NCBI GenBank assembly: GCA_022402525.1
Contig: JAKRSB010000112.1
Span: forward strand, 1-64,000
Source of the DNA: Thermosynechococcaceae cyanobacterium MS004
Lineage (GTDB): Bacteria > Cyanobacteriota > Cyanobacteriia > Thermosynechococcales > Thermosynechococcaceae
Length of the DNA stretch: 64,000 bases
Reading direction: 5' to 3'
Below the pieces are notes generated by a model. It was not told where the DNA came from. It ran no database searches and saw only the letters and a list, made by a program, of their open reading frames with translations. Shown piece by piece: positions 1,667 through 59,804 of the stretch (its first letter is position 1; the number at the start of each line of letters is the position of its first letter). A program made the position numbers and the translations under genes.

Positions 1667-3880
1667 TTAGCGCTGCGGTGCGGGTGTCCCAGGGCTGGGA
1701 GGTTGGGGCTGGGGACTGGGTAAAAGCGCTTGAAATCGATCCGCTTCTTTTTGACTGCGTTCAGCCTCGGCCAGATTGCTCTGGCTCTGGTAAAGCTCCG
1801 CCGCTTTTCGATAGTCTGCGATCGCGGCTTCTCGGCTCCCCATTAGGATATGCAGCGTAGCGCGGTTATGGTAAGCCAGGGCATTATTGGGATCTAGGCT
1901 AATTGCTTGACTGTAGTCTGCTAGCGCTTCTGGGCGCTGACCATTCTGGCTGCGCAGGTTGGCACGGTTCAGGTAGGCTCCTGCATTTTTAGGGTCGAGG
2001 GCAATGGCCTGGTTATAGTCCGCGATCGCTGAGGCTTTATCGCCATTCTCGTTATGGGCCGCGCCCCGCCCAAAGTAAGCGGAGGGGGCTTTGGGACTAA
2101 GGGCGATCGCCTGGGTATAGTCCGCGATCGCCTGGGGGTAAACTTTTTGGGCAAAGTAAGCCGCCCCGCGCTGGATGTAAGCCTCTGCTAACTTTGGATT
2201 TAGCGTAATCGCCTGGGTAAAGTCCGCGATCGCGGCGGCAAAATTCTTCCGTTTGGCCTGGAGCAGGCCGCGTCGGTAGAGCGCTTCAGCAGACTTTGGA
2301 TCTAGCTGGATCGCCTGGGTGGCTTTCTGAAGCGCCACGGCATCATTGCCTGCTGCCGCTTCTACAGCAGCTAGTCCTTGGTAGGCTAAGGCCGATGGCT
2401 TCAGGGCGATCGCCCGCGTAAAGTCCTGCTGAGCCGCTGTCGTATTGCCCTGAGCGAGATAGATCTGACCCCGCTTAGTATAGGCTTCACTGGATTTGTT
2501 ATCCAGCGTGATCGCCTGATTGAGATCCACAAGGGCGGCTGGGTAACGCCCCAAACTTCCATAGACTGCCCCGCGCTGGAGATAGGACACGGCATCCTTA
2601 CTGTCTAGGGCGATCGCCTTGGTATAGTCTGCGATCGCGGCTTCGTAGTTGGCCAGCGCTGCCTGTACATTTGCCCGGTTCACGTAGGCTACAGCATATT
2701 TTGCATCCTTCTGAATCGCGGCACTATAGTCCTTGAGGGCACCCGGATAGTCCTGCTTTAGGTATTTTTGAGTGCCCTTCTCAATCAGAACATTGGCTTC
2801 GCGCCGTGCAGCCCAGTCAACTTGCTGAGCAGCATTTGGCTGAGGTTTGGGCTTTGCGACAGGCTGTGCAATGGGCTTGGTGACGGGCTTTGGAGTGGGC
2901 TTTGCTGCGGGCTTGGTGACGGGCTTAGTGACAGGTGTTGCAGTGGGCTGTGTAGCGGGCTTTGGAGTGGGCTGTGCAATGGGCTTGGTGACGGGCTTAG
3001 TGACAGGCGTTGCAGTGGGCTGTGCAGCGGGCTTAGTGACGGGTGTTGCAGTGGGTTTAGCCTGTGCTGGGTTGACAGCCGGGGTCGTTTTTGCTGGAGC
3101 AGCTTGTGCTGGAGTCGCCTTGACTGGCGTAGCCTCTGCCGGAGCTGGAGCGGCCTTTACAGGAGCTGATGGGGCTGGCTTTTTAGGGCTAGATGCAGGG
3201 CTAGATTCAGCAGCCTTCGGTTTCTCTGGTTGCTCTGGCTTCTTTTCGTTTGCAGGCTCAGTTGTTGGGGCAGTAGGTTTAGCCTCAGCAGGCACAACCG
3301 TAGGGCTTGCAATTGGCTGTGCTGCGGGTGAAGGACTGGCGGTTGGAACTGATTTTGCTGGGGCTGGCTTAGCTGGGGCTGGCTTCGTGGGGGAGTCTGT
3401 GGGGGTTGGATTTGTAGGGGTTGCAATCGACTTTGCCGGAGTGGATTTTGCTGGTGAGTCTGTAGGGGTTGCGATCGGTTTTGCTGGGGCTGGCTTCGCG
3501 GTTGGGATCGCAGCAGGCGGCTTCGTGATTCCAGTTTTAGGTTCTTCTGGAAGCGCCTTGGCTGGTGCTGAGGATGCAGGTGCCGCAGAATTAGATTTTG
3601 GTTTATTAGATTCTGGTTTGGCAGCATTGCCACTAGGGGCTGGAACTGCTTTTTTGAGTGCAGGCTCAGGCGCGCTCTGAGGTGCTTCTTGCTGAGTAGG
3701 TTGTGTGCGCGGAACTTGAGGTAGCGGAATGTCTCGGAACAGGTCGGGGGACAAGGGCTGAAGCTGAGCCACGCTGGGTCGCAGGCTGGCTTGACCCACA
3801 AATAACGGCCCCACACCTAACGCTAAAAGCCAAAGGCCAATAGAAATTCCGCGTTGCCGCAGTTGATGTCTCTCGTTCAT
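1667..3880 (-). CDS. Exported TPR-repeat protein with long Pro/Ala/Lys/Thr linker
   Basis: A protein of about 737 residues. The ATG at 3880 (MNERHQLRQRG) gives a classical signal-like N-terminus: basic residues, a hydrophobic stretch IGLWLLALGVGPLFVG, then SVAQ. A start 24 bp further upstream is possible. Residues of roughly 40-370 are low-complexity P/A/K/T sequence, with units such as ATPVTKPVTKP repeated. From about residue 375 to the end run about ten tetratricopeptide repeats of the type A-Y-x-x-R-A-x2-h-x3-x-Y-x2-A-I-x-D-Y-x2-A-I-x-L-D-P. TPRs are protein-docking scaffolds. The architecture suggests a periplasmic or surface scaffold held away from the membrane by a flexible, possibly wall-spanning linker; this role is inferred. 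It is paralogous to the TPR genes at 4111-4950 and 6041-7705 and shares their C-terminal A-A-x-L-Y-x-Q-x-N motif. Confidence 0.88.
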   Translation of the reverse strand: MNERHQLRQRGISIGLWLLALGVGPLFVGQASLRPSVAQLQPLSPDLFRDIPLPQVPRTQPTQQEAPQSAPEPALKKAVPAPSGNAAKPESNKPKSNSAAPASSAPAKALPEEPKTGITKPPAAIPTAKPAPAKPIATPTDSPAKSTPAKSIATPTNPTPTDSPTKPAPAKPAPAKSVPTASPSPAAQPIASPTVVPAEAKPTAPTTEPANEKKPEQPEKPKAAESSPASSPKKPAPSAPVKAAPAPAEATPVKATPAQAAPAKTTPAVNPAQAKPTATPVTKPAAQPTATPVTKPVTKPIAQPTPKPATQPTATPVTKPVTKPAAKPTPKPVTKPIAQPVAKPKPQPNAAQQVDWAARREANVLIEKGTQKYLKQDYPGALKDYSAAIQKDAKYAVAYVNRANVQAALANYEAAIADYTKAIALDSKDAVSYLQRGAVYGSLGRYPAALVDLNQAITLDNKSSEAYTKRGQIYLAQGNTTAAQQDFTRAIALKPSALAYQGLAAVEAAAGNDAVALQKATQAIQLDPKSAEALYRRGLLQAKRKNFAAAIADFTQAITLNPKLAEAYIQRGAAYFAQKVYPQAIADYTQAIALSPKAPSAYFGRGAAHNENGDKASAIADYNQAIALDPKNAGAYLNRANLRSQNGQRPEALADYSQAISLDPNNALAYHNRATLHILMGSREAAIADYRKAAELYQSQSNLAEAERSQKEADRFQALLPSPQPQPPSPGTPAPQR
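2850..3060. repeat. In-frame tandem repeats coding the Pro/Thr/Lys linker of the first TPR protein
   Basis: Interleaved imperfect units coding for TPVTKP, AQPTA and TPKPVTKP follow one another with near-identical codons. GTGACGGGCTTAGTGACAGG-like segments recur with little synonymous drift. The reverse strand is therefore also open over 277 codons, which is a by-product of the repeat composition and not a gene. Confidence 0.75.
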
Positions 3881-4110
3881 ACAGACTACCCTGACTTTCC
3901 ACACTGAACCGTTTTTTGCTGATCGTTTATAGGGCTGATTGTTTTATGGGGCTGATCGTTTTATGGGGCTAAATTGTTGATGGGTTTGCATTCCCAGGCA
4001 ATGCGTCCCATTCATGGGTAGAGACTCAGACTTACTCCACTTCTACCCCATATTTAGGGCAGTCTGCTGGCCTGTCAAGGGTCTAGGTAAGCGTAGGTGG
4101 CACCTATTTT

Positions 4111-4950
4111 CTAAAACTGCTTTAAAAATTCCTGAAGCCCGTTATGGTCTTCTTGGTTGCCCTGCTGTAGATATAAAGCAGCAGCCTGTTGAAAGTCCGC
4201 TCGCGCCATGGCTCGATTATTGAGGCTGAGATAGACGGTACCCCTTGCGTGGTAAGCCTGGGCATTTTTGGGGTTGAGCTGGAGGGCTCTGGTATAGTCT
4301 GCGATCGCAGCGGCGGTATTCTCTAAAGCAGCGTAGGCCAGCCCTCGGTTGACATATACATCGGCATCCTTGGGGTTGAGCGCGATTGATCGGCTATAGT
4401 CTTGGACGGCTTCTTTTTCTTCTCCCGTCAAGATATGAAGCATCGCGCGGTTGTTATAGGCCGGTGCAAAGCGCGGATTGACCTGAAGTGCTTGGTTAAA
4501 GAGGGTTTTGGCCGCTGAATAGTCGCCCTGATTCATGCGTTCAATGCCGCGATTGTTGAGCGTGGCGGCAGAGACGGTCGCCACGCGATCTGAACCGTCA
4601 ACAGCTAGCCCTAGGGCAGTTGTTTTAACGGGTTTTAAGGAATGTTGTTCTGAATTTGTCGGGGTTTGTGAACCAACGGCCCAACTTTTAGTATTCAGCG
4701 CAACATGATTTTTCTGGCTTTTGTGATCTAAGTCTGGACTAATGCTGTTTACCTGTGGTATCGCCAAAGCCTCTCCAGATAAGGCTTGCAGCAAGAGCTG
4801 AGCTAGCAGAAGGCTCGCAAAAATCAGGCGGCAGGTCGTCGTCTGATTTTTCGTTATTGTTTCTTGACCAAAATGAAAAATTGGGGCTTCAAGGGCAGGC
4901 GCTTGGTCTGTCTTTTGCTCGTGGAGGGAAGGCATCATGGAAGCTGGCAC
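4111..4950 (-). CDS. TPR-repeat protein, short paralogue with one N-terminal membrane helix
   Basis: 279 residues. After a soluble N-terminus of about 40 residues there is a single hydrophobic segment (LIFASLLLAQLLLQALSG) that could anchor the protein or act as a late signal sequence. A Ser/Thr-rich linker follows, then about four TPR units from residue 130 (for example YSAAKTLFNQALQVNPRFAP). The C-terminus AAALYLQQGNQEDHNGLQEF matches the ends of the two larger TPR proteins nearby, so the three descend from one ancestor. It lacks the long Pro/Lys-rich linker. The start is uncertain: in-frame ATGs follow at residues 5 and 6, which would shorten the part before the helix slightly. Function unknown beyond protein-protein docking. 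Confidence 0.82.
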   Translation of the reverse strand: MPASMMPSLHEQKTDQAPALEAPIFHFGQETITKNQTTTCRLIFASLLLAQLLLQALSGEALAIPQVNSISPDLDHKSQKNHVALNTKSWAVGSQTPTNSEQHSLKPVKTTALGLAVDGSDRVATVSAATLNNRGIERMNQGDYSAAKTLFNQALQVNPRFAPAYNNRAMLHILTGEEKEAVQDYSRSIALNPKDADVYVNRGLAYAALENTAAAIADYTRALQLNPKNAQAYHARGTVYLSLNNRAMARADFQQAAALYLQQGNQEDHNGLQEFLKQF

Positions 4951-5086
4951 CAGGGATAGACTAAAGAAGATATCCTTCAGTCTTCACTTCTGAGCCTTAA
5001 ATTAGGACAGGCCATCCATAAAGAAACTCCTCAAAGGTGTCGGTAGGATTTAATCTGGGCTTACGAAAAAATGTCCGCCCCAAAGC

Positions 5087-5869
5087 TTATGAACGAAAAG
5101 GAAGCAGTAACAACTGCGGAAGTTGATCCAGGGCTGCATTCTGACGTTCTGCCAGCCCCAAGGTCATGGATTTTTGTCCAGCCGAAGGCTCCCCCTGGTA
5201 GGTTCCCAGCAGCCTGTCCCACCACGGTAGGTTAAAGCTGAAATTGTGGTTGGTTTCGGATGCGATCGCAGAGTGATGGACGCGGTGCATATCGGGCGTG
5301 ACGATCACCATTCTCAAAATGCGATCTAGAGGGACAGGAATTGCGATATTACTGTGGTTAAACAGGGATGTTGCATTCAGCAAAATTTCAAAGGCGATTA
5401 CAGCCGTGGGAGGTGCCCCCAAAGCCAGCACCGCCAGCATCTTTAGGAGCATGGACAGACCAATCTCGACGGGGTGAAACCGGATGCCGCTGCTGACATC
5501 AAGATCTAGGTCAGCATGATGAACCCGATGGAACCGCCAGAACAGCGGCACAGTATGGAACACACGGTGCTGGAGATAAATGAGCAAGTCCAGCGCCACC
5601 ATAGACCCCGCGATCGCCACCCAGTCCCCCACCCGCCAATGATTGAGCAGCCCCCAGCCCTTTTCCTGAGCCATTGTCGCCACGCCAACTGCCGCCACAG
5701 GAAACAGGAGCCACAACAGCACAGTGCTGAGTAGCCCCAAACTGAAGTGATTGAGCCAGCGTGTTGTTTTGGGTGCTCTCAGGGCGCGGCGAGGGGCAAA
5801 AGCTTCTGCCCCCGCCATCGTGATCAACACACCCGCAAAGCATGTGAGGCGAAGCAGAGGTTCAGGCAT
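5087..5869 (-). CDS. Sterol desaturase / fatty acid hydroxylase superfamily membrane enzyme
   Basis: 260 residues from the ATG at 5869 (MPEPLLRLTCFAG). An upstream in-frame extension to 6028 exists but runs through a tandem-repeat leader and is unlikely to be translated. The diiron histidine clusters of the superfamily are present: HRVFH, then HRVHH in WRFHRVHHADLD, then HRVHHSAIASETNHN. Hydrophobic helices flank these. Members use a non-haem diiron centre with oxygen to hydroxylate or desaturate lipids, sterols or carotenoids; the substrate here cannot be read. It sits between two paralogous TPR genes on the same strand, with the upstream TPR gene ending 171 bp before its start, so co-transcription is possible. 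Confidence 0.9.
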   Translation of the reverse strand: MPEPLLRLTCFAGVLITMAGAEAFAPRRALRAPKTTRWLNHFSLGLLSTVLLWLLFPVAAVGVATMAQEKGWGLLNHWRVGDWVAIAGSMVALDLLIYLQHRVFHTVPLFWRFHRVHHADLDLDVSSGIRFHPVEIGLSMLLKMLAVLALGAPPTAVIAFEILLNATSLFNHSNIAIPVPLDRILRMVIVTPDMHRVHHSAIASETNHNFSFNLPWWDRLLGTYQGEPSAGQKSMTLGLAERQNAALDQLPQLLLLPFRS

Positions 5870-5891
5870 AATGGCTACGACCGCATTAACG

Positions 5892-5932
5892 GCTGATGAA
5901 CGAACGACTGATGAACGAACGACTAATGAACA
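5892..5932. repeat. Tandem repeat upstream of the hydroxylase gene
   Basis: About three consecutive copies of a 15-bp unit close to CTGATGAACGAACGA lie in the leader of the minus-strand hydroxylase gene. The reading frame stays open through them, which explains the spurious long N-terminal extension. Confidence 0.75.
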
Positions 5933-6040
5933 ACGCCTGAAAAGGAGCTGTGTTGGGCAAGACATGCTGACGCTGTTGAGCTGTCTTCTCAAGATTGTTA
6001 TGGCAAGCCAAACCCTCAAGTCAACCACGGCTGCAAGACG

Positions 6041-7705
6041 CTACTTCAGCAGAGACTGGAGGGCGTTATATTCATCCCGATTGCCCTGCTTGAGATAGAG
6101 CTGAGCGGCTTTCTGGAGGTCTGATTTTGCTTCAGCTTGCTGCCCATCTACGCCCATCTTAGCAACGCCACGACTATGGTAGGCTCTGGGGTCATTGGGA
6201 TTTAGACGAATGGCCTGATCGTAGTCCGTGATCGCCTGTGGCGTCTTGTCCTGAGCAGCATAGGCTAATCCGCGATTAATATAGATTGTCGCATCCTGGG
6301 TATTGAGTTGAATGGCTTTGTCATAGTCCTTGATTGCGGCATCTTCATTCCCTAGCCCTACATGAGCCATGGCGCGGTTGTTGTAGGCTGGCGCAAACTT
6401 TGGGTCAAGGGCGATCGCCTTAGAGCTATCGGCAAGGGCTTCTTGAAATTTCCCTGCGACCAGCAAGGTCGTGGCGCGATTATTGAAGGCCGCTGCCGAC
6501 TTGGGGTTGAGGTCCACCGCGCGGGTAAAGTCTTTGGCGGCTTCTTGGGTTTTTTTGAGGGCATCCAGGGCAATCCCGCGATGGTTATAGGCCGCAGCAA
6601 ATTTCGGATCCAGGGCGATCGCCCGATCAAAATCCTTGACGGCCACTGCGTAGCGCCCCAAGGCTAGCTGAGAATTGCCCCGAAAGGCATAGCCTGCTGC
6701 AGATTTGGCGTCTAGCGCGATCAGGCGGGTATAGTCGGCGATCGCGCCGAGGTGATCTTTTTCCTGGGCCTTTAGCAATCCGCGATGGAGATAGGGTCTA
6801 GGGGCCTTTGGATCTAGGGTAATGGCCTGGGTGTAGTCGGCGATCGCTCCTGGGCGGTCGGCGGCAGCAGCTTTAGATAAGCCCCGTAGGGTATAGACTT
6901 CCGTCCACTTTGGATCCAGCTCCAGGGCAGTCGTAAAGTCAGCAATGGCTTCTTTATGCTTTTGCTGAGCGCTGTAGGCAAGGCCACGATAGTAGTAAAT
7001 TTTCGGATTTTTGGGCGCTAACTCTAGCGCCTTCGTGAAGGTTATGGTTGCATTTACCTGCTCTCCCTTGACGTACAGCCCGATGCCTTTCTGCAAGAGT
7101 GCATTACCTTGCTGATTCTTAGGGTCAGGTTTTTGTACCGTGTCCTTGGGAGTCGTGGGCTTGGTTGTTGCCGTGGGTCTGTTAGATGGTTTATCTAAAG
7201 GCTTTGCAACCGGTTTTTCAAGGGGTTTTTCAAGGGGCTTATTAGGGGGCTTATCTGCGGGTGTCGTTGGTTTGGCGATCGCGGGATTAACGATCGCGGG
7301 ACTAACGGTTGCGGGAACAGTGGGCTTGGTGATCGCTGGTTTTGCAGTAGCCGGTTTGGCAAGGGTTGGCTTGGCAGCAGGTGACTTTTCTGGAGATGCT
7401 GCTTCAGCGGGCAAGGGGGAAGCAGTTGGCTTGATCTGCGCCGCATCAGGGGTTTTCCCAGGTTTAGCTTCAGGCTGTTGGCCTGGAACAGACTGTGGCG
7501 TTGTAGAAGTAGAAGGTGATGGGGACTTCACTGTCGACGGAACTGGAGCAGCACCAGCTTTACTGAAGCCAGCTTTGCTTAAGCCTGAGACAAAGCTCCA
7601 AGACAGCAAAATGAGCACCAGGGAACCCAGACGCTGAAAACGTAGACTAGGCGCTATTGAGAGCCGTCGAGTAGAGGCACGGAATCGGTAAAACTTCATG
7701 GTCAT
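6041..7705 (-). CDS. Exported TPR-repeat protein, third paralogue
   Basis: 554 residues. The ATG at 7705 and one two codons later are both possible. The N-terminus is basic and followed by a hydrophobic core (LGSLVLILLSWSFVSG), consistent with export. Residues of roughly 50-195 form a P/A/K/T linker (KPTLAKPATAKPAITKP type). From about residue 200 there are about ten TPR units, several with the consensus AIADYTQAITLDPKAPRPY. The last lines, AAQLYLKQGNRDEYNALQ, are nearly the same as in the 279-residue paralogue. The gene ends 171 bp before the start of the hydroxylase gene. No partner domain is visible; a scaffold role in the periplasm or at the envelope is inferred. Confidence 0.87.
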   Translation of the reverse strand: MTMKFYRFRASTRRLSIAPSLRFQRLGSLVLILLSWSFVSGLSKAGFSKAGAAPVPSTVKSPSPSTSTTPQSVPGQQPEAKPGKTPDAAQIKPTASPLPAEAASPEKSPAAKPTLAKPATAKPAITKPTVPATVSPAIVNPAIAKPTTPADKPPNKPLEKPLEKPVAKPLDKPSNRPTATTKPTTPKDTVQKPDPKNQQGNALLQKGIGLYVKGEQVNATITFTKALELAPKNPKIYYYRGLAYSAQQKHKEAIADFTTALELDPKWTEVYTLRGLSKAAAADRPGAIADYTQAITLDPKAPRPYLHRGLLKAQEKDHLGAIADYTRLIALDAKSAAGYAFRGNSQLALGRYAVAVKDFDRAIALDPKFAAAYNHRGIALDALKKTQEAAKDFTRAVDLNPKSAAAFNNRATTLLVAGKFQEALADSSKAIALDPKFAPAYNNRAMAHVGLGNEDAAIKDYDKAIQLNTQDATIYINRGLAYAAQDKTPQAITDYDQAIRLNPNDPRAYHSRGVAKMGVDGQQAEAKSDLQKAAQLYLKQGNRDEYNALQSLLK

Positions 7706-10004: not shown

Positions 10005-10517
10005 ATGCCGATCGCCCTTTATTTAATTCGTCACGGCATTGCCACGGAGCGAGATTCAGGGATAGATGATCGCGATCGCCCTTTGACTCCCAAAGGCCGT
10101 CAGAAAGCCCAAGCGATCGCCCAGCAGCTTAAGGCATTGGGCCTAGACTTTGACGAAATTTTGACCAGCCCGCTGCTGCGCGCCACCCAGACTGCTGAAA
10201 TTTTGCTAGGAGCAGGGCTATCGGCGCAAATGAGCATTACCCATAGCCTTGCGCCCTTGGGCTCCTTCAGCGACTGGCTGGCTTGGCTGCGAGGTTATGA
10301 TGCAGAAAGACAGAATCAAAAAACAACGATCGCCCTTGTCGGCCACGAGCCAGACTTGAGCCAGTGGGCAGAACTCCTGCTGTGGGGAGAGTCTAGGGGC
10401 GTACTCCAGCTCAAAAAAGGAGGCATCCTTGGGCTGAATATTGCTGACCCGGCCGATCCTCTGGGAAATAGCATTCTGTTTTGGTTAACACCGCCGCGAT
10501 TTCTGGTTTCGTCGTAA
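10005..10517 (+). CDS. sixA: SixA-type phosphohistidine phosphatase
   Basis: 170 residues. The start is the ATG at 10005, which has AAAAGGAAT just upstream; the open frame extends a further 25 codons upstream without a good start. It belongs to the histidine phosphatase superfamily: LIRHG at residues 7-11 gives the phospho-accepting His10, and ALVGHEPDLS gives the second catalytic His114. TSPLLRATQTAEIL carries the conserved phosphate-binding Arg. The short length and the GHEPDLS motif match SixA, which removes phosphate from phosphohistidine on phosphorelay proteins. The substrate in this organism is inferred only. Confidence 0.9.
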   Translation: MPIALYLIRHGIATERDSGIDDRDRPLTPKGRQKAQAIAQQLKALGLDFDEILTSPLLRATQTAEILLGAGLSAQMSITHSLAPLGSFSDWLAWLRGYDAERQNQKTTIALVGHEPDLSQWAELLLWGESRGVLQLKKGGILGLNIADPADPLGNSILFWLTPPRFLVSS

Positions 10518-14899: not shown

Positions 14900-15054
14900 A
14901 CGTGAGTTCGATGATGCACTTGAAGCCCCTCACCCCAAACCCCTCGCCTTTGGGAGAGGGACTTAAGAGGCTTGATTGTCAATTGCCCCTCCTTCTCCCC
15001 AGGGAGAAGGAGGATGGGAGGATGAGGGGCGGTTGTTTCTGGTCGAACTCACGT
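14900..15054 (+). mobile_element. 155-bp MITE-like element, copy 1, with 7-bp target duplication
   Basis: Non-coding element with perfect 12-bp terminal inverted repeats ACGTGAGTTCGA. Inside lie a subterminal pair GCCCCTCA/TGAGGGGC, a hairpin CCCTC-(10 nt)-GAGGG, and a 12-bp hairpin CCTCCTTCTCCC-CA-GGGAGAAGGAGG. It is flanked by CTGATTA at 14893-14899 and 15055-15061. The right-hand CTGATTA contains the cpcD stop codon. It encodes no transposase, so mobilisation in trans is inferred. Related copies are at 44713 and 59650. Confidence 0.88.
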
Positions 15055-15528: not shown

Positions 15529-16389
15529 TTATTGAGCAATTGAGACGCTGGCCACTTTGCCGCCTAGCTTATTAATGCGCTGAAGCGTCGAAGATAGGTC
15601 TTCGTAAGACACAATGTACTCTCGGCTGCTGCGGCGGATTTTGGGATAGCCTGGGTTACGAGTCCCCGAAACTTCAATGCGATAGAGGCGATCGCCAGAG
15701 CCGACCGCTGAGCGCCCAAAGGTACGATTGGGTGCAGTACCTTGCTTAGAGGCCTGGTAAGCAAACCCGTCGCTAGAAGCAGGGACAACCGCAGAGGCAC
15801 TGTTGCGCGCCAATTCAGCCGCAAGGTGAGGGCCAGACGCCACTTGAGCGCGATCGCTATTGGCATAGCCGCGATAGAGCTGAAAAATGCGCGTAAACCC
15901 GACGGTCTTTTGACCCTTTTGGGTCGAAAATCCGCGATAGTAAGGCACAATCGAGTCACCAAAGTTTTCGCTATATTCCTCAGAGTCGATGTAGGAATCC
16001 ACATCCGCATCAAAGCCCTGAGTCTCGTAGCGGTCGAGGTGCTCTACAATTTCGGACTCATCATAGGGCGCACGACCTAGGAAATGCTTAAAGTTCAGCT
16101 CAATTACCCGGCTATGAAAATTTGGGTAAAGGAACTTGCTTTTGTATAGCTCTGACTTTGCCACAGCGCGCACGAAGTCCCGCACGGTCACTTGGCCATT
16201 GGCCAGCAAAGATTCTAGCGCCGTGAGCCGCTCAGACTGCATCAGGTAGTCATTGCCAAGCACTTGGCGATAGACCGTTCTAATAATGCCCTTCGCATCG
16301 TCCGCAGACCAGTTTGCTCTTAGCTCTACTGGACTTGCATCGGTGTAGGCAGTTGTTCCCAATCGGGAAGCTGCGGTAGTAATCGCCAC
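15529..16389 (-). CDS. cpcC: Phycobilisome rod linker polypeptide, CpcC type
   Basis: 286 residues from the GTG at 16389. This start is chosen because AAGGAG lies 7 bases upstream and the resulting [11 protein letters not shown] is the usual CpcC N-terminus; an ATG 11 codons upstream lacks a ribosome site. Residues of about 20-180 are the PBS-linker domain ([54 protein letters not shown]). A C-terminal CpcD domain ([19 protein letters not shown]) follows. It joins phycocyanin hexamers in peripheral rods. It is a close paralogue of the gene upstream. Confidence 0.94.
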
Positions 16390-16422
16390 AAATTTTCTCC
16401 TTAAAGTCAATGAAAAATGCAC

Positions 16423-16482
16423 CTCAGCTTAAATTAGGCTGAGAATTAGGTAGGCGGGGGATTAGGTAGGCAGGGGATTAGG
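16423..16482. promoter_or_regulatory. Small hairpin and tandem repeat between the two cpcC genes
   Basis: CTCAGC pairs with GCTGAG around a 9-base loop (16423-16443). Next to it GATTAGGTAGGC-like units repeat about three times (16445-16482), overlapping the last codons of the upstream linker gene. A post-transcriptional role is possible but not shown. Confidence 0.45.
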
Positions 16483-17296
16483 CTGCGGAAATACTCGTCA
16501 CTCGCCCCCCCTGTTTATTGAGGCGCTGGAGTGTTGGGGAAAGCTGCTCGTAAGAGACCAGATACTCTCGCACTGTGGCTCTAATTTGAGGGGTGCGGGT
16601 ACGGCCGCTCTGGATGACTTTCACGCGGTAAAGCTGGCCACGCGTTCCGCCCGTCGTTCCGGCGAGTCCTTTCCCATGGTGAGGCGTGCGCACCGCATTC
16701 GCTAGGTTGAGCGCTAAGTCTTCCGTTAGCCAAGCTGATTTGTTCTTAGACTGCGCGCGATCGCTATTGGCATAGCCGCGATAGAGCTGAAAAATCCGGT
16801 TAAAGCCCACGGTCTTTTGACCCTTTTGGGTCGAAAATCCGCGATAGTAGGGGACAATTGAGTCGCCAAAGCTTTCTTGATATTCTGTTGAATCAATATA
16901 GGAATTAATTTCAGCGTCGTAGCCATGGTGGATGTAGCGGTTGACGTGCTCTGTAATTTCAGACTCGTCGTAGGGCGCACGGCCCAATAAATGCTTAAAG
17001 TTCAGTTCAATAAAGCGAACCTGGGGGCTACCGTAAAAAAACTTGTTGCGATAGAGCTCTGAGAGTGCAACAGTGCGGACAAAATCTCGCACTGAAATAT
17101 CGCCCTGACGCAGCAGCGACTCCGCACTGGTCAAACGCTCAGATTCCATAATGTGGTCATGACCTAAAACCTGGCGATAGGACGCCCAGATCGCAGCATT
17201 CACTTCATCTTCAGACCGATGGACTCGGAGTTCCACTGGCTTCATATTGGCGTATGGCTCAAATCCAAGCTGCTGTGCAGCAATAGAACTTGTCAT
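16478..17296 (-). CDS. cpcC: Phycobilisome rod linker polypeptide, second CpcC-type paralogue
   Basis: 272 residues from the ATG at 17296 ([20 protein letters not shown]), which has TAGGAG 8 bases upstream; the open frame reaches 17368 but without a ribosome site. Domain order is the same as its neighbour: PBS-linker domain ([54 protein letters not shown]) then a CpcD-like C-terminal domain ([19 protein letters not shown]). Two such linkers usually serve successive rod discs. It is first in the minus-strand cluster cpcC-cpcC-cpcD. The phycocyanin subunit genes cpcBA that normally precede it are not in the 800 bp upstream. Confidence 0.93.
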
Positions 17297-18092
17297 TTTT
17301 GTGCTCCTAGGGTGAGGAAAAAATAGACTCGGAGAAGTCTGTACCGGATGAGCCGAAAGGCTAATCACAACGGCAAACCCCGCTGGGCGAGCTTCACCGT
17401 CAATGAGTTGATAGCTTGATTGATGGCTTAATCGATATAAGCGTTGGCTTCTGTCTCAGCATCTTCAGATAGGTTATGGCCTTAACCTGCTGAAGGACTT
17501 TCAACATATCAGCTCAACATTTCAGCTTAGAAGTGCGGAATGAGAGGCGCTAAAAGTAGTAAAAAGATTGAGAGCTTTGTTCCGTGAATGTTTCTGGATC
17601 TAAGGCAAAGACCAAAGTGAGAAACATGGAGTCTGCAAAGCCAAGTCATTCAACATGAGGAAAAACATCATGAAAAATATGACGAACAATTTTCACCACT
17701 ACTTTGTTGGGCGCTTAATTTGAACGCTTGATTTGAGCGCTTAAGTTCCTAAAAAACGAACGTATTTTCTAGCCATCAACGACTTCGGCTGACGTTTAAC
17801 CGCCCAGTACCCACGATTAAAGCAGCGCATTTGTGCATTTTTTGTGCAAATCCAAAACATACTGAATCGCAAAAAATTAAGAAATTATAAGAAACTCCAA
17901 AACGTTTGCTGTGTATGGCGTTCAGATATTTTGAAACTGAGCAAGTCTTTACAAAAAGACATTTTGCAATACGTTTCTTTACAGAAGAATCAGCAGTATT
18001 TACGCTTCTCAGGTCGTGGCCTGTGCGAGATGGCTAAGCTCAGAAAACCTTGCAAGGGATTCAGCGCTAAAGCTACCTAAAGCCGCCGAAAG
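17297..18092. other. 796-bp spacer upstream of the linker operon
   Basis: No phycocyanin genes or other convincing coding region. A 78-codon plus-strand frame at 17844-18080 has no ribosome site and no recognisable family. The region is AT-richer than its surroundings. It should contain the promoter and a long leader of the linker operon, but I could not place boxes. Confidence 0.55.
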
Positions 18093-19612: not shown

Positions 19613-21880
19613 GTGGGGTGCCCTGAATCGCTCTGGATTATCGGCTCTGCAAAGTCTGGCAAAACGGCGACGTTAATTGCTCAGCTCAAGGCATGGCGCG
19701 AGGCAGCGAAGACGCCCCGGACGGCTTTGGCTGGCCCTAACTTAAGTGGCTCTAACTTGGTTGGTTCTCATTCAGCGCCCCCCTTGCGACTAAATCCAAA
19801 AACTAACCCAGATTTATCCAGGGCAACGCTTGTGTTTGCGGCAAATGCCGACAATCGGGCTGGACTGATGCAGCGTATCGCCCAGCAGCAGGTCGGACAA
19901 GAAACGCTTCTTTCCACGACTCCCCTTGCATTTTTTGAGAGCGAGGTTTTGCTGTTTTGGCCCTTAATCATTCAGCAGCGGAACCTGCGGGGCTATTTTC
20001 CCTATCGCCTGCGTCCCGAAGCCGAGCAGTCGTTGTCCTTAAGGCTGTGGGGTAAGACCGCGATCGCAATGCTCCAGGACTTTGAGGCAGGCTCAACGGA
20101 TCAGTGGGGACGCCGAATTCTAGACCTGATTCAGCTTGCGGCCTCTAGCGGTACTCCCCTGAATAGCCTTGCCGTCAAGCTGAGGACTGGGGACGAATTT
20201 TTTCAGGTGCCAGAGTCGATTGCGCGGCTCATTCAGGAACTTGCGCTTCAGTGGCAGGACTGGTGCCTCCACCGAGGAATTTTGACCTATGGACTCATTA
20301 CGGACTTATACGCTCAAGGGCTCTTAACCCATGACACCTATCTTCAGCAGATCTCCCAGCGCTTTAGCGCGATCGCCGCTGATGATGTGGATAACTATCC
20401 GGCGATCGCACGGACGCTCTTTGAGCGGTTCCTAGACCTGAACCTCCCTGGAATCTTTACCTACAGCACCACGGGCGGCATTCGTAAAGGATTGGGCGCT
20501 GACCCAGAGGCTTTTCTGGACTTGCGTGAGCGCTGCACAGTCCTCACTCAGCCCGATGTGTTCAACCTTTACCCCCCTAGTGGGCAAAATGCCGACGGGC
20601 GCTCAGGCATCGGCATAGCTTTGCCGGAAGAAGCTCTGACGATTTATGCCCTACAGACCGCGTCGCGGACACAACTGCTTCAACGGGTCGCCCAGCATGT
20701 CACCCAGTCTATTCAGGAAGGCAGCATACAGCCCCAAGAGATTGCCCTCATTGGCCCTGGCCTCGATCCGCTGGCTCGCTACGCCCTCATCGATAGCCTT
20801 CAGCGCAGCGGAATTCCTGTAGAGCCATTACGAGAACAGCGATCGCTCCAAAGCTCGGCCTTGGTTCGCGCGTTGCTGACGCTGTTGGCGCTGGTTTACC
20901 CTGGCTTGGGGCATTGGGTAGAAGCCGAGCAGATTGCTGAAATGCTGGTGGTCTTGACCAGGAGCAGCGGCCCAGCGGCTCAGGAAGACACTGCGATCGA
21001 TCCAGTGCGAGCCGGACTGTTCGCCGACTATTGTTTTCGCCCCCACCCTGAGCAGCCGGAACTCTTGCCGATGGATGCCTACCTCCGCTGGGATCGGCTG
21101 GGATATCGTGCAGCACAGGCCTATGAACAGATTAGACAGTGGATTGCCCAGCAGCAGGGGGCGCTTCAGGGGCATTCGTCCCAGAGCCCTTTCCTTCCTG
21201 CGTCTCCGCTTACGCCACCGCTTACCTCCTATCTCACCCTGAGTCCGGTTTTTGTCCTAGATCGGGCAATTCAGACTTTTTTAATGCACCATACCCTCCC
21301 AATTGAGCAGCTTGCTGCCCTGCGCGAGCTGATGGAAACGGCTCAGCACTACTGGGATGTAGATGCTCGACTCCGCAAGAATGAGGCAGACTGGCCCACG
21401 GTTTCGGAGGCGATCGCGCATTTTATTCAGCTTTTGCGGCGGGGCGTCATTACGGCCAACCCCTATCCGGTGAGCAATCAGCAGCGGCGTGCTGCGGTTG
21501 TCTTGGCCACGAGTTTCCAATATTTGAATGCTCGGCTCCAGCATTCTTGGCAGTATTGGCTAGATGCAGGTTCCCAGCTTTGGCAGTATGGGGGCGAAGT
21601 GGAGCTGTGGGGAGCCTCTCTCTTTTTGACCAGCCCCTCTAGTCGGGAAGCCGCTCAAGTAGAGCAGCCAGACGCAAGGGACTCAGACTCAGCCGCATTA
21701 AAGACTCAGCAGCCTGCTCTTTCCCAAAGCCGGATGACCGCCACGTTGGCGGAATTGGTTAGCCGTACTCAGTCGCGTATTTACCTTTGCCATAGTGACT
21801 TGGCTGTTAATGGTCAGGCCCAGATGGGGCCGCTATTGCCCTGGGTCGAAACGGCAATCCCCGACTCGCTGAATAGCTAG
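19613..21880 (+). CDS. RecB/AddB-like P-loop protein (degenerate superfamily I helicase)
   Basis: 755 residues from a GTG. The N-terminus has a Walker A motif IIGSAKSGKTATL. The middle of the protein contains helicase-like segments: a Walker-B-like AIAADDVDNYPA, and ALIGPGLDPLARYALIDSLQ followed by GIPVEPLREQRSLQSSALVRALLTLL, the type of sequence found in domain 2 of UvrD/AddB proteins. No clear C-terminal PD-(D/E)xK nuclease signature or iron-sulfur cysteines are visible, unlike full AddB. It resembles the cyanobacterial proteins annotated as recombinase-family or helicase-like. A role in double-strand-break processing is inferred. No addA-like partner is adjacent. Confidence 0.7.
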   Translation: MGCPESLWIIGSAKSGKTATLIAQLKAWREAAKTPRTALAGPNLSGSNLVGSHSAPPLRLNPKTNPDLSRATLVFAANADNRAGLMQRIAQQQVGQETLLSTTPLAFFESEVLLFWPLIIQQRNLRGYFPYRLRPEAEQSLSLRLWGKTAIAMLQDFEAGSTDQWGRRILDLIQLAASSGTPLNSLAVKLRTGDEFFQVPESIARLIQELALQWQDWCLHRGILTYGLITDLYAQGLLTHDTYLQQISQRFSAIAADDVDNYPAIARTLFERFLDLNLPGIFTYSTTGGIRKGLGADPEAFLDLRERCTVLTQPDVFNLYPPSGQNADGRSGIGIALPEEALTIYALQTASRTQLLQRVAQHVTQSIQEGSIQPQEIALIGPGLDPLARYALIDSLQRSGIPVEPLREQRSLQSSALVRALLTLLALVYPGLGHWVEAEQIAEMLVVLTRSSGPAAQEDTAIDPVRAGLFADYCFRPHPEQPELLPMDAYLRWDRLGYRAAQAYEQIRQWIAQQQGALQGHSSQSPFLPASPLTPPLTSYLTLSPVFVLDRAIQTFLMHHTLPIEQLAALRELMETAQHYWDVDARLRKNEADWPTVSEAIAHFIQLLRRGVITANPYPVSNQQRRAAVVLATSFQYLNARLQHSWQYWLDAGSQLWQYGGEVELWGASLFLTSPSSREAAQVEQPDARDSDSAALKTQQPALSQSRMTATLAELVSRTQSRIYLCHSDLAVNGQAQMGPLLPWVETAIPDSLNS

Positions 21881-44712: not shown

Positions 44713-44867
44713 ACGTGAGTTCGACAAAAAACAATCGCCCCTCATCCTCCCAGCTTTCTTCTCCCCAGGGAGAAGGAGGGGCAATTAAAAATCAAGATTC
44801 TCAAGCCCCTCGCCTTTGGGAGAGGGGTTTGGGGTGAGGGGCTTCAAGTGCATCATCGAACTCACGT
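44713..44867 (-). mobile_element. 155-bp MITE-like element, copy 2, inverted orientation
   Basis: Same length and terminal repeats (ACGTGAGTTCGA at both ends) as copy 1, in opposite orientation, in the divergent spacer between mutS2 and ndhD. No target duplication is evident. After reverse complementing, its flanks and spacer match copy 1, but the hairpin loops read TCCCAAAGGC instead of GCCTTTGGGA, and TG instead of CA, so each internal hairpin is flipped in place. Confidence 0.87.
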
Positions 44868-59649: not shown

Positions 59650-59804
59650 GCGTGAATTCGATGGAGCTTCTTAAGCCCCTCACCCCAAACCCCTCGCCTT
59701 TGGGAGAGGGGCTTAAGAAGCTCCATTTTGAATTGCCCCTTCTTCTCCCTAGAGAGCAGGAGGGTGGGAAGATGAGGGGCGATTGTTTTTTGTCGAACTC
59801 ACGT
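59650..59804 (+). mobile_element. 155-bp MITE-like element, copy 3
   Basis: Same length as the other two copies. The right end is TCGAACTCACGT; the left end has diverged (GCGTGAATTCGA, two mismatches). It abuts the stop codon TAG (59647-59649) of the pilin fragment exactly. Flanking TAAAGTAG and TAAATTAG are a near-perfect 8-bp target duplication (one mismatch). The second internal hairpin is degraded, so this is likely the oldest copy. Confidence 0.85.

Follow-up and report, generated by a model that had tools for sequence, protein, structure and literature searches.

The 10-nt loop of an internal hairpin in a ~155-bp repeat element has been flipped in place recurrently, on at least several separate occasions. 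The inversion is exact, it recurs over unrelated copies of the element, several different loops are found in both orientations and no intermediates occur. Inter-strand template switching probably inverts the loop, repeatedly and independently, both in this element and in cousin hairpins found in other cyanobacterial genomes. That template switching can invert loops is already known, usually from rare single events, and our data clearly add a new case of this mutational process in a bacterial MITE and in several cyanobacteria. A high-copy bacterial repeat offers dozens of parallel trials per genome and can serve as a natural assay of template switching.

An internal hairpin loop occurs in two exactly inverted orientations

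The window (the whole 64,000-nt stretch of DNA that was analyzed) contains three full copies of the element:

14900–15054, + strand: copy 1, full element, loop 1 flipped; flanked on each side by the 7-bp target duplication CTGATTA
44713–44867, − strand: copy 2, full MITE-like element, loop 1 unflipped (majority state); 12-bp inverted ends ACGTGAGTTCGA, aligned with the family
59650–59804, + strand: copy 3, full element, loop 1 flipped; 12-bp ends

In element orientation, hairpin 1 reads CCCCTC-loop-GAGGGG, with a 10-nt asymmetric loop held between 6-bp GC-rich arms; copy 1 carries a single changed arm base (GAGGGA). Copy 2 has TCCCAAAGGC as its loop and both copy 1 and copy 3 have GCCTTTGGGA; these two sequences are reverse complements at 10 of 10 positions. 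The ends and the spacer of all three copies lie in the same orientation despite these opposite loop states, so that only the loop itself is turned around:

44806–44827, − strand: inner hairpin 1 of copy 2, with 6-bp arms CCCCTC/GAGGGG and a 10-nt loop
44812–44821, − strand: loop 1 of copy 2, TCCCAAAGGC in element orientation (GCCTTTGGGA on the + strand)
14946–14955, + strand: loop 1 of copy 1, flipped, GCCTTTGGGA
59696–59705, + strand: loop 1 of copy 3, flipped, GCCTTTGGGA

The loop 10-mer occurs four times in the window, against 0.31 occurrences expected; its match at 10088 is unrelated to the element.

We scored loop orientation over all genomic copies, a check that the initial annotation had proposed. 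A pattern count that tolerated 3 or fewer mismatches in 32 bases found the standard loop in 83 copies and the flipped loop in 7, and an eighth flipped copy, L136, has an 11-nt loop. Genome-wide, loop 1 is therefore TCCCAAAGGC in ~83 copies and its reverse complement in 8, with no intermediates. The inverted segment is directly flanked by short inverted arms, which measure 6 bp in 58 of 89 measured copies and are mutated or extended in the minority; in the 8 flipped copies the spacer is the exact reverse complement of the family's (10/10 bases in copies 1 and 3), between arms that the inversion leaves unchanged. Six substitutions separate the two loop states, and no copy has as many as two of them. 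With ~80 sister copies in the other state, this rules out chance and leaves stepwise mutation without credibility.

The initial annotation, which compared copies 1 and 2, had described their first loops as exact reverse complements and had argued that point mutation would not do this to a 10-base loop. Both statements hold: the flanks and spacer are co-oriented, and a mutational route would require six specified substitutions. It had also described copy 2 as flipped relative to copy 1. The two loops are indeed in opposite orientations, but the genome-wide ratio shows that copy 2 has the usual loop and that the flip is in copies 1 and 3.

The second hairpin, said to be flipped in place as well, proved to be different. 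Its center does have the letters reported:

15000–15001, + strand: hairpin 2 center of copy 1, CA, one transition from the consensus TA
44766–44767, − strand: hairpin 2 center of copy 2, read as TG in element orientation and differing from the consensus TA by one transition

The consensus hairpin 2 is a perfect palindrome, CCCTAGGG, with TA at its center. Among 83 copies, 67 have TA, 5 have TG and 5 have CA. Because CA and TG are each a single transition away from palindromic TA, no inversion is needed to explain them, and we reject the reading of hairpin 2 as a flip. A flip of the consensus center would be invisible.

Several further observations concern loops within the family. The idea that the flipped loop is a copy of the upstream CCCCAAACCCCTC block was rejected, as the 10/10 match is to the reverse complement of the loop and not to that of the upstream block. 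The flipped loop is predicted to pair with the upstream CCCCAAA block in a foldback that is more stable than that of the standard form (−14.7 versus −9.1 kcal/mol). Two related copies on contig C135, L124 and L125, have the loop TCCCGAAGGA, with its closing mismatch repaired to a base pair; this is possibly another template-switch correction. When the 93-row alignment was inspected by eye, neither the outer hairpin, with its 24-nt spacer, nor the spacer that separates the hairpins showed any flips.

The host repeat is a young, MITE-like element

The ~155-bp element is a young, non-coding, MITE-like repeat. A gene does not fit it, and it is bounded by 12-bp terminal inverted repeats, ACGTGAGTTCGA/TCGAACTCACGT. 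Target-site duplications of 7 bp accompany many copies, such as the CTGATTA that flanks copy 1, which argues that the element moves, or has moved, in the manner of a MITE; no clear 7-bp target duplication was found at copy 2. The element thus resembles bacterial MITEs in its length of ~155 bp, non-coding nature, terminal inverted repeats and target-site duplication. It differs from them in that its internal hairpin core is common to repeats of distant cyanobacteria that lack these terminal inverted repeats. No known RNA family scored near its gathering threshold against the element.

We recognized ~90 copies genome-wide. The host genome is a 150-contig draft in which several copies lie at contig ends, and C51, C55, C77, C95, C114, C145 and other contigs terminate inside copies of the element, so the real copy number is probably higher. 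Eleven sites with a lone terminal inverted repeat were checked for repeat positions and open frames, and several of them resemble further or degraded small copies. The contig of the window, C17, carries a fourth copy at contig position 103762. Three of its four copies are flipped, compared with ~5 of 87 elsewhere (hypergeometric ~0.002, calculated by hand and uncorrected for the choice of contig); this excess may be chance.

Outside the host genome, we found no match to the element among 291 genomes of the class with at most one mismatch allowed in the hairpin. An exact-pattern search of wider genome contigs, a collection that may omit near records, did not locate it elsewhere either. The related two-hairpin core, without these terminal inverted repeats, is widespread among cyanobacteria.

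Cousin hairpins in other cyanobacteria are found in both orientations

We read the loops of these cousin hairpins in eleven cyanobacteria, anchoring one side of each on the fixed sequence CCCTCACCCC. Five genomes other than that of the window carry cousin loops in both orientations:

G045: AAAAG 13 versus CTTTT 3; AGAAG 13 versus CTTCT 1; AGCAG 4 versus CTGCT 2
G031: AAAAT 6 versus ATTTT 4
G034: AGAGC 9 versus GCTCT 1
G002 (same genus): AGAAC 3 versus GTTCT 1
G010: AATGTT 7 versus AACATT 1, among the rows listed

In G045, three different loop sequences are each present in both orientations. Over the six genomes, the window's included, loops of at least 4 nt form 10 distinct reverse-complement pairs, 0 plain reversed pairs and 0 plain complemented pairs; the loops were taken by hand from printed rows, which are cut short for G010, so the counts of individual loops may be off by about one. 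Shuffling the letters within loops gave a mean of 0.86 reverse-complement pairs and a maximum of 6 in 5000 shuffles. Some of the inverted pairs in other genomes rest on single copies.

The surroundings of the inverted loops in G045 were compared with those of their counterparts. For two of the three CTTTT copies, all nearest relatives outside the loop are AAAAG copies. The third also has AAAAG copies nearest to it, yet its spacer letters are those of the other background. The nearest-relative background of the CTGCT and CTTCT copies is less clear than that of CTTTT. In G010, cousin hairpins stand head to head in pairs, ~70 bp apart (for example, C5:53234–53339), with the partner loops AACATT and AATGTT.

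Template switching at the locus itself is the preferred mechanism

We infer that the loops are inverted by inter-strand template switching, with the locus of each copy serving as its own template. During replication, a nascent strand that has copied one arm would anneal to the opposite strand, where the arm sequence is identical. It would then copy the loop backwards from that strand and, at the second arm, would go back to its own template, leaving the loop inverted and the flanks unmoved.

Copy 3 bears a mark of this kind of event in its outer hairpin arms:

59661–59681, + strand: outer left arm of copy 3, 21 bp that have been rewritten to match the right arm exactly in reverse complement (the family standard is 9 bp)
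59706–59726, + strand: outer right arm of copy 3, partner in the 21-bp perfect inverted repeat

Perfect complementarity of the outer arms extends over 21 bp in copy 3 and over at most 11 bp in every other measured copy, so that arm homogenization is seen in copy 3 only. Such rewritten arms are a typical footprint of template switching. We do not attribute the flipped loop and the rewritten arms of copy 3 to a single event, as two switches would be required; the rewriting supports template switching at hairpin 1 without proving a joint event. The inner arms count against template switching, in that their 6 bp fall short of the >9 bp of the spacer inversions described in yeast (PMC8604942).

A variant of this route would use another locus as template, with the 22-bp arm-loop-arm segment copied backwards from an oppositely oriented paralog by gene conversion or template switching. 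The ~90 paralogs, which lie in both orientations, supply identical 22-bp segments, and for the commonest loop the outcome would be the same as that of the in-place route. The rarer loops are more telling. The flipped loop of L136, GCCCTTTGGGA, is the reverse complement of an 11-nt loop, TCCCAAAGGGC, that we find in the unflipped copy L023, and L136 and L023 have two further variants in common; flipping of so rare a loop would be expected from its own sequence or that of a near sister. Likewise, the CTTTT copies of G045 sit mostly on an AAAAG background. We therefore consider a paralogous template unlikely and retain template switching at the copy's own locus.

Flipped copies are scattered across the family

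A single ancestral flip might have given rise to a master copy, from which a flipped subfamily spread by transposition while mutation and recombination scrambled its other differences. The initial annotation had named two old subfamilies with linked differences as the result that would make the flips ancestral. We looked for such subfamilies with the loop columns removed, on 83 scored copies, 8 of them flipped, and found neither strong linkage nor clustering.

None of the flipped copies has a flipped nearest neighbor (0 versus 0.71 expected), and the mean distance among flipped copies is not below random (p = 0.87, or 0.62 once the divergent L052 is left out). The divergence of flipped copies equals the family mean. 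On the maximum-likelihood tree, the 8 flipped tips require 8 changes, with a 5–95% bootstrap range of 8–8, and without divergent rows 7 flipped tips require 7 changes. Individual cases agree: L136 and L047 are each nearest to unflipped copies (L029 in the case of L047), and G045 alone has three different loops flipped. No variant is strongly linked to the flipped loop among the 8 flipped copies in the family alignment.

Two results lean the other way. An approximately unbiased (AU) test does not reject a single flipped clade (p = 0.225; 0.097 without divergent rows), and the CA center of hairpin 2 is mildly enriched in flipped copies (3/8 versus 2/75, uncorrected p = 0.0055). The tree strongly prefers scattered flipped copies, but it is built on few columns and consists mostly of open forks. 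Given these few columns and the AU result, the case for recurrence rests on the lack of any positive signal of a subfamily. On balance, one ancestral flip appears quite unlikely, and recurrent flipping remains our reading.

Cruciform cleavage, artefact and programmed inversion

The initial annotation had offered cruciform cleavage or template switching as routes to loop inversion. For hairpin 1 the proposal of inversion stands and for hairpin 2 it falls. Between the two routes, a cruciform that is extruded, cut across its loop bases and religated the other way round would yield an identical end product, and the palindromic arms and the foldback would allow extrusion. Arms of 6 bp, however, are very short for cruciform extrusion from duplex DNA, and the homogenized arms of copy 3 would be left unexplained. 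Template switching fits these 21-bp rewritten arms better, and there is only a slight chance that cruciform cleavage accounts for the flips.

An assembly or amplification artefact at hairpins of draft genomes is highly improbable. Polymerases are able to switch template in vitro, and the genome is a draft of 150 contigs with several copies at contig ends. Against this, the pattern recurs in six genomes that were assembled independently, the flipped copies are embedded in long contigs between unique flanking sequences, and flips involve several of the cousin variants. A programmed switch, in which a site-specific recombinase inverts the loop, is scarcely credible: the short inverted arms around a flipping segment are superficially inverton-like, but the 10-nt spacer (5-nt in cousins) is far below known invertible segments, the arms measure 6–10 bp, the loop sequence varies among genomes, and copies in the minority state are few and dispersed.

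Relation to known loop inversions

Template switching between molecules, with arm homogenization, was described as the source of inverted-repeat spacer inversions in Saccharomyces by Abraham and Hazkani-Covo in 2021 (PMC8604942). The flips reported here have in common with that system an exact in-place inversion, perfect short arms and occasional arm homogenization, and the likeness extends to recurrence and reversibility across lineages. The yeast cases have arms of >9 bp and spacers of 3–5 bp, lie in coding genes and were compared at orthologous loci (PMC8604942), whereas the element is a multicopy bacterial repeat whose inner arms measure 6 bp and whose loop is 10 nt long. Our evidence on flips comes from the comparison of paralogous copies.

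Loops of rRNA hairpins are also inverted by template switching, in bacteria among others (PMC8794818). There, too, only the loop is inverted and the stems stay intact, with loops of 7–8 nt in the bacterial examples. Such inversions are very rare in functional RNA (PMC8794818), in contrast to ~9% of copies in our family. In plastid DNA, small palindrome-flanked inversions have long been known to recur, for example in trnH-psbA (PMC2903610), and hairpin-associated small inversions are credited there to Kelchner and Wendel (1996). As in the element, a palindrome loop flips repeatedly and produces homoplasy. The plastid inversions occupy single-copy spacers and have arms of at least 18 bp (PMC2903610); here the setting is a mobile repeat of a free-living cyanobacterium.

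Flip rate and contrast with a near-identical E. coli hairpin

Flips affect 8 of ~91 copies, or 0.09 per hairpin. Copies differ from the consensus by a median of ~9 substitutions in 143 bases, or ~0.06 per site. A loop thus flips about as often as any one base is substituted, a rough ratio that ignores back-flips and inherited states. Ordinary alignment counts one flip as about six substitutions and thereby distorts the subfamily trees of repeats.

The E. coli motif TMECO/PIT, which overlaps boxC and forms an intrastrand triplex, follows the strict pattern CCCTCNCCCN3-6GGGNGAGGGN3GGGNGAGGG (PMC4666352). On its opposite strand, hairpin 1 reads CCCTCGCC-TTT-GGGAGAGGG-GTTTG-GGGTGAGGG. The two have the three-block layout in common, together with a G/A arm mismatch as in E. 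coli type A mm. The hairpin 1 region at 44806–44840 resembles TMECO/PIT closely though the phyla are distant. In the element, by comparison, the C-rich block is shorter and the second linker is 5 nt instead of 3; the element consensus does not match the strict pattern, because of that linker and of a different last base in the C block. The E. coli motif is not described as belonging to an element with terminal inverted repeats.

The unflipped forms with TTT and TCT were found at 21,401 and 15,541 places, respectively, across 5,426 E. coli genomes; these places overlap and are not independent. Flipped forms of this near-identical hairpin had 0 matches in the same genomes for the two loops tested, which indicates that such hairpins do not flip detectably everywhere. 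The contrast suggests a difference between lineages without establishing it, as the places in different strains are non-independent and E. coli K-12 has only about two dozen loci of the motif. Selection on loop orientation in E. coli is an equally possible account. The near identity of the hairpins makes a lineage difference testable. That cyanobacteria, like plastids, flip hairpin loops unusually often relative to E. coli, at about the rate of single-base substitution, is a generalization we regard as rather doubtful; if true, a high flip rate would be a trait of replication-fork repair common to plastids and their ancestors.

Other features of the window

Two regions of the − strand stand apart from the element. 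At 15529–17368, adjoining open reading frames of 297 and 296 amino acids, 82% identical over a 260-bp stretch, are a tandem paralog pair. At 1667–7705, coding repeats with a period of 102 nt (34 amino acids), which are rich in GCGATCGC, suggest TPR-like repeat proteins.
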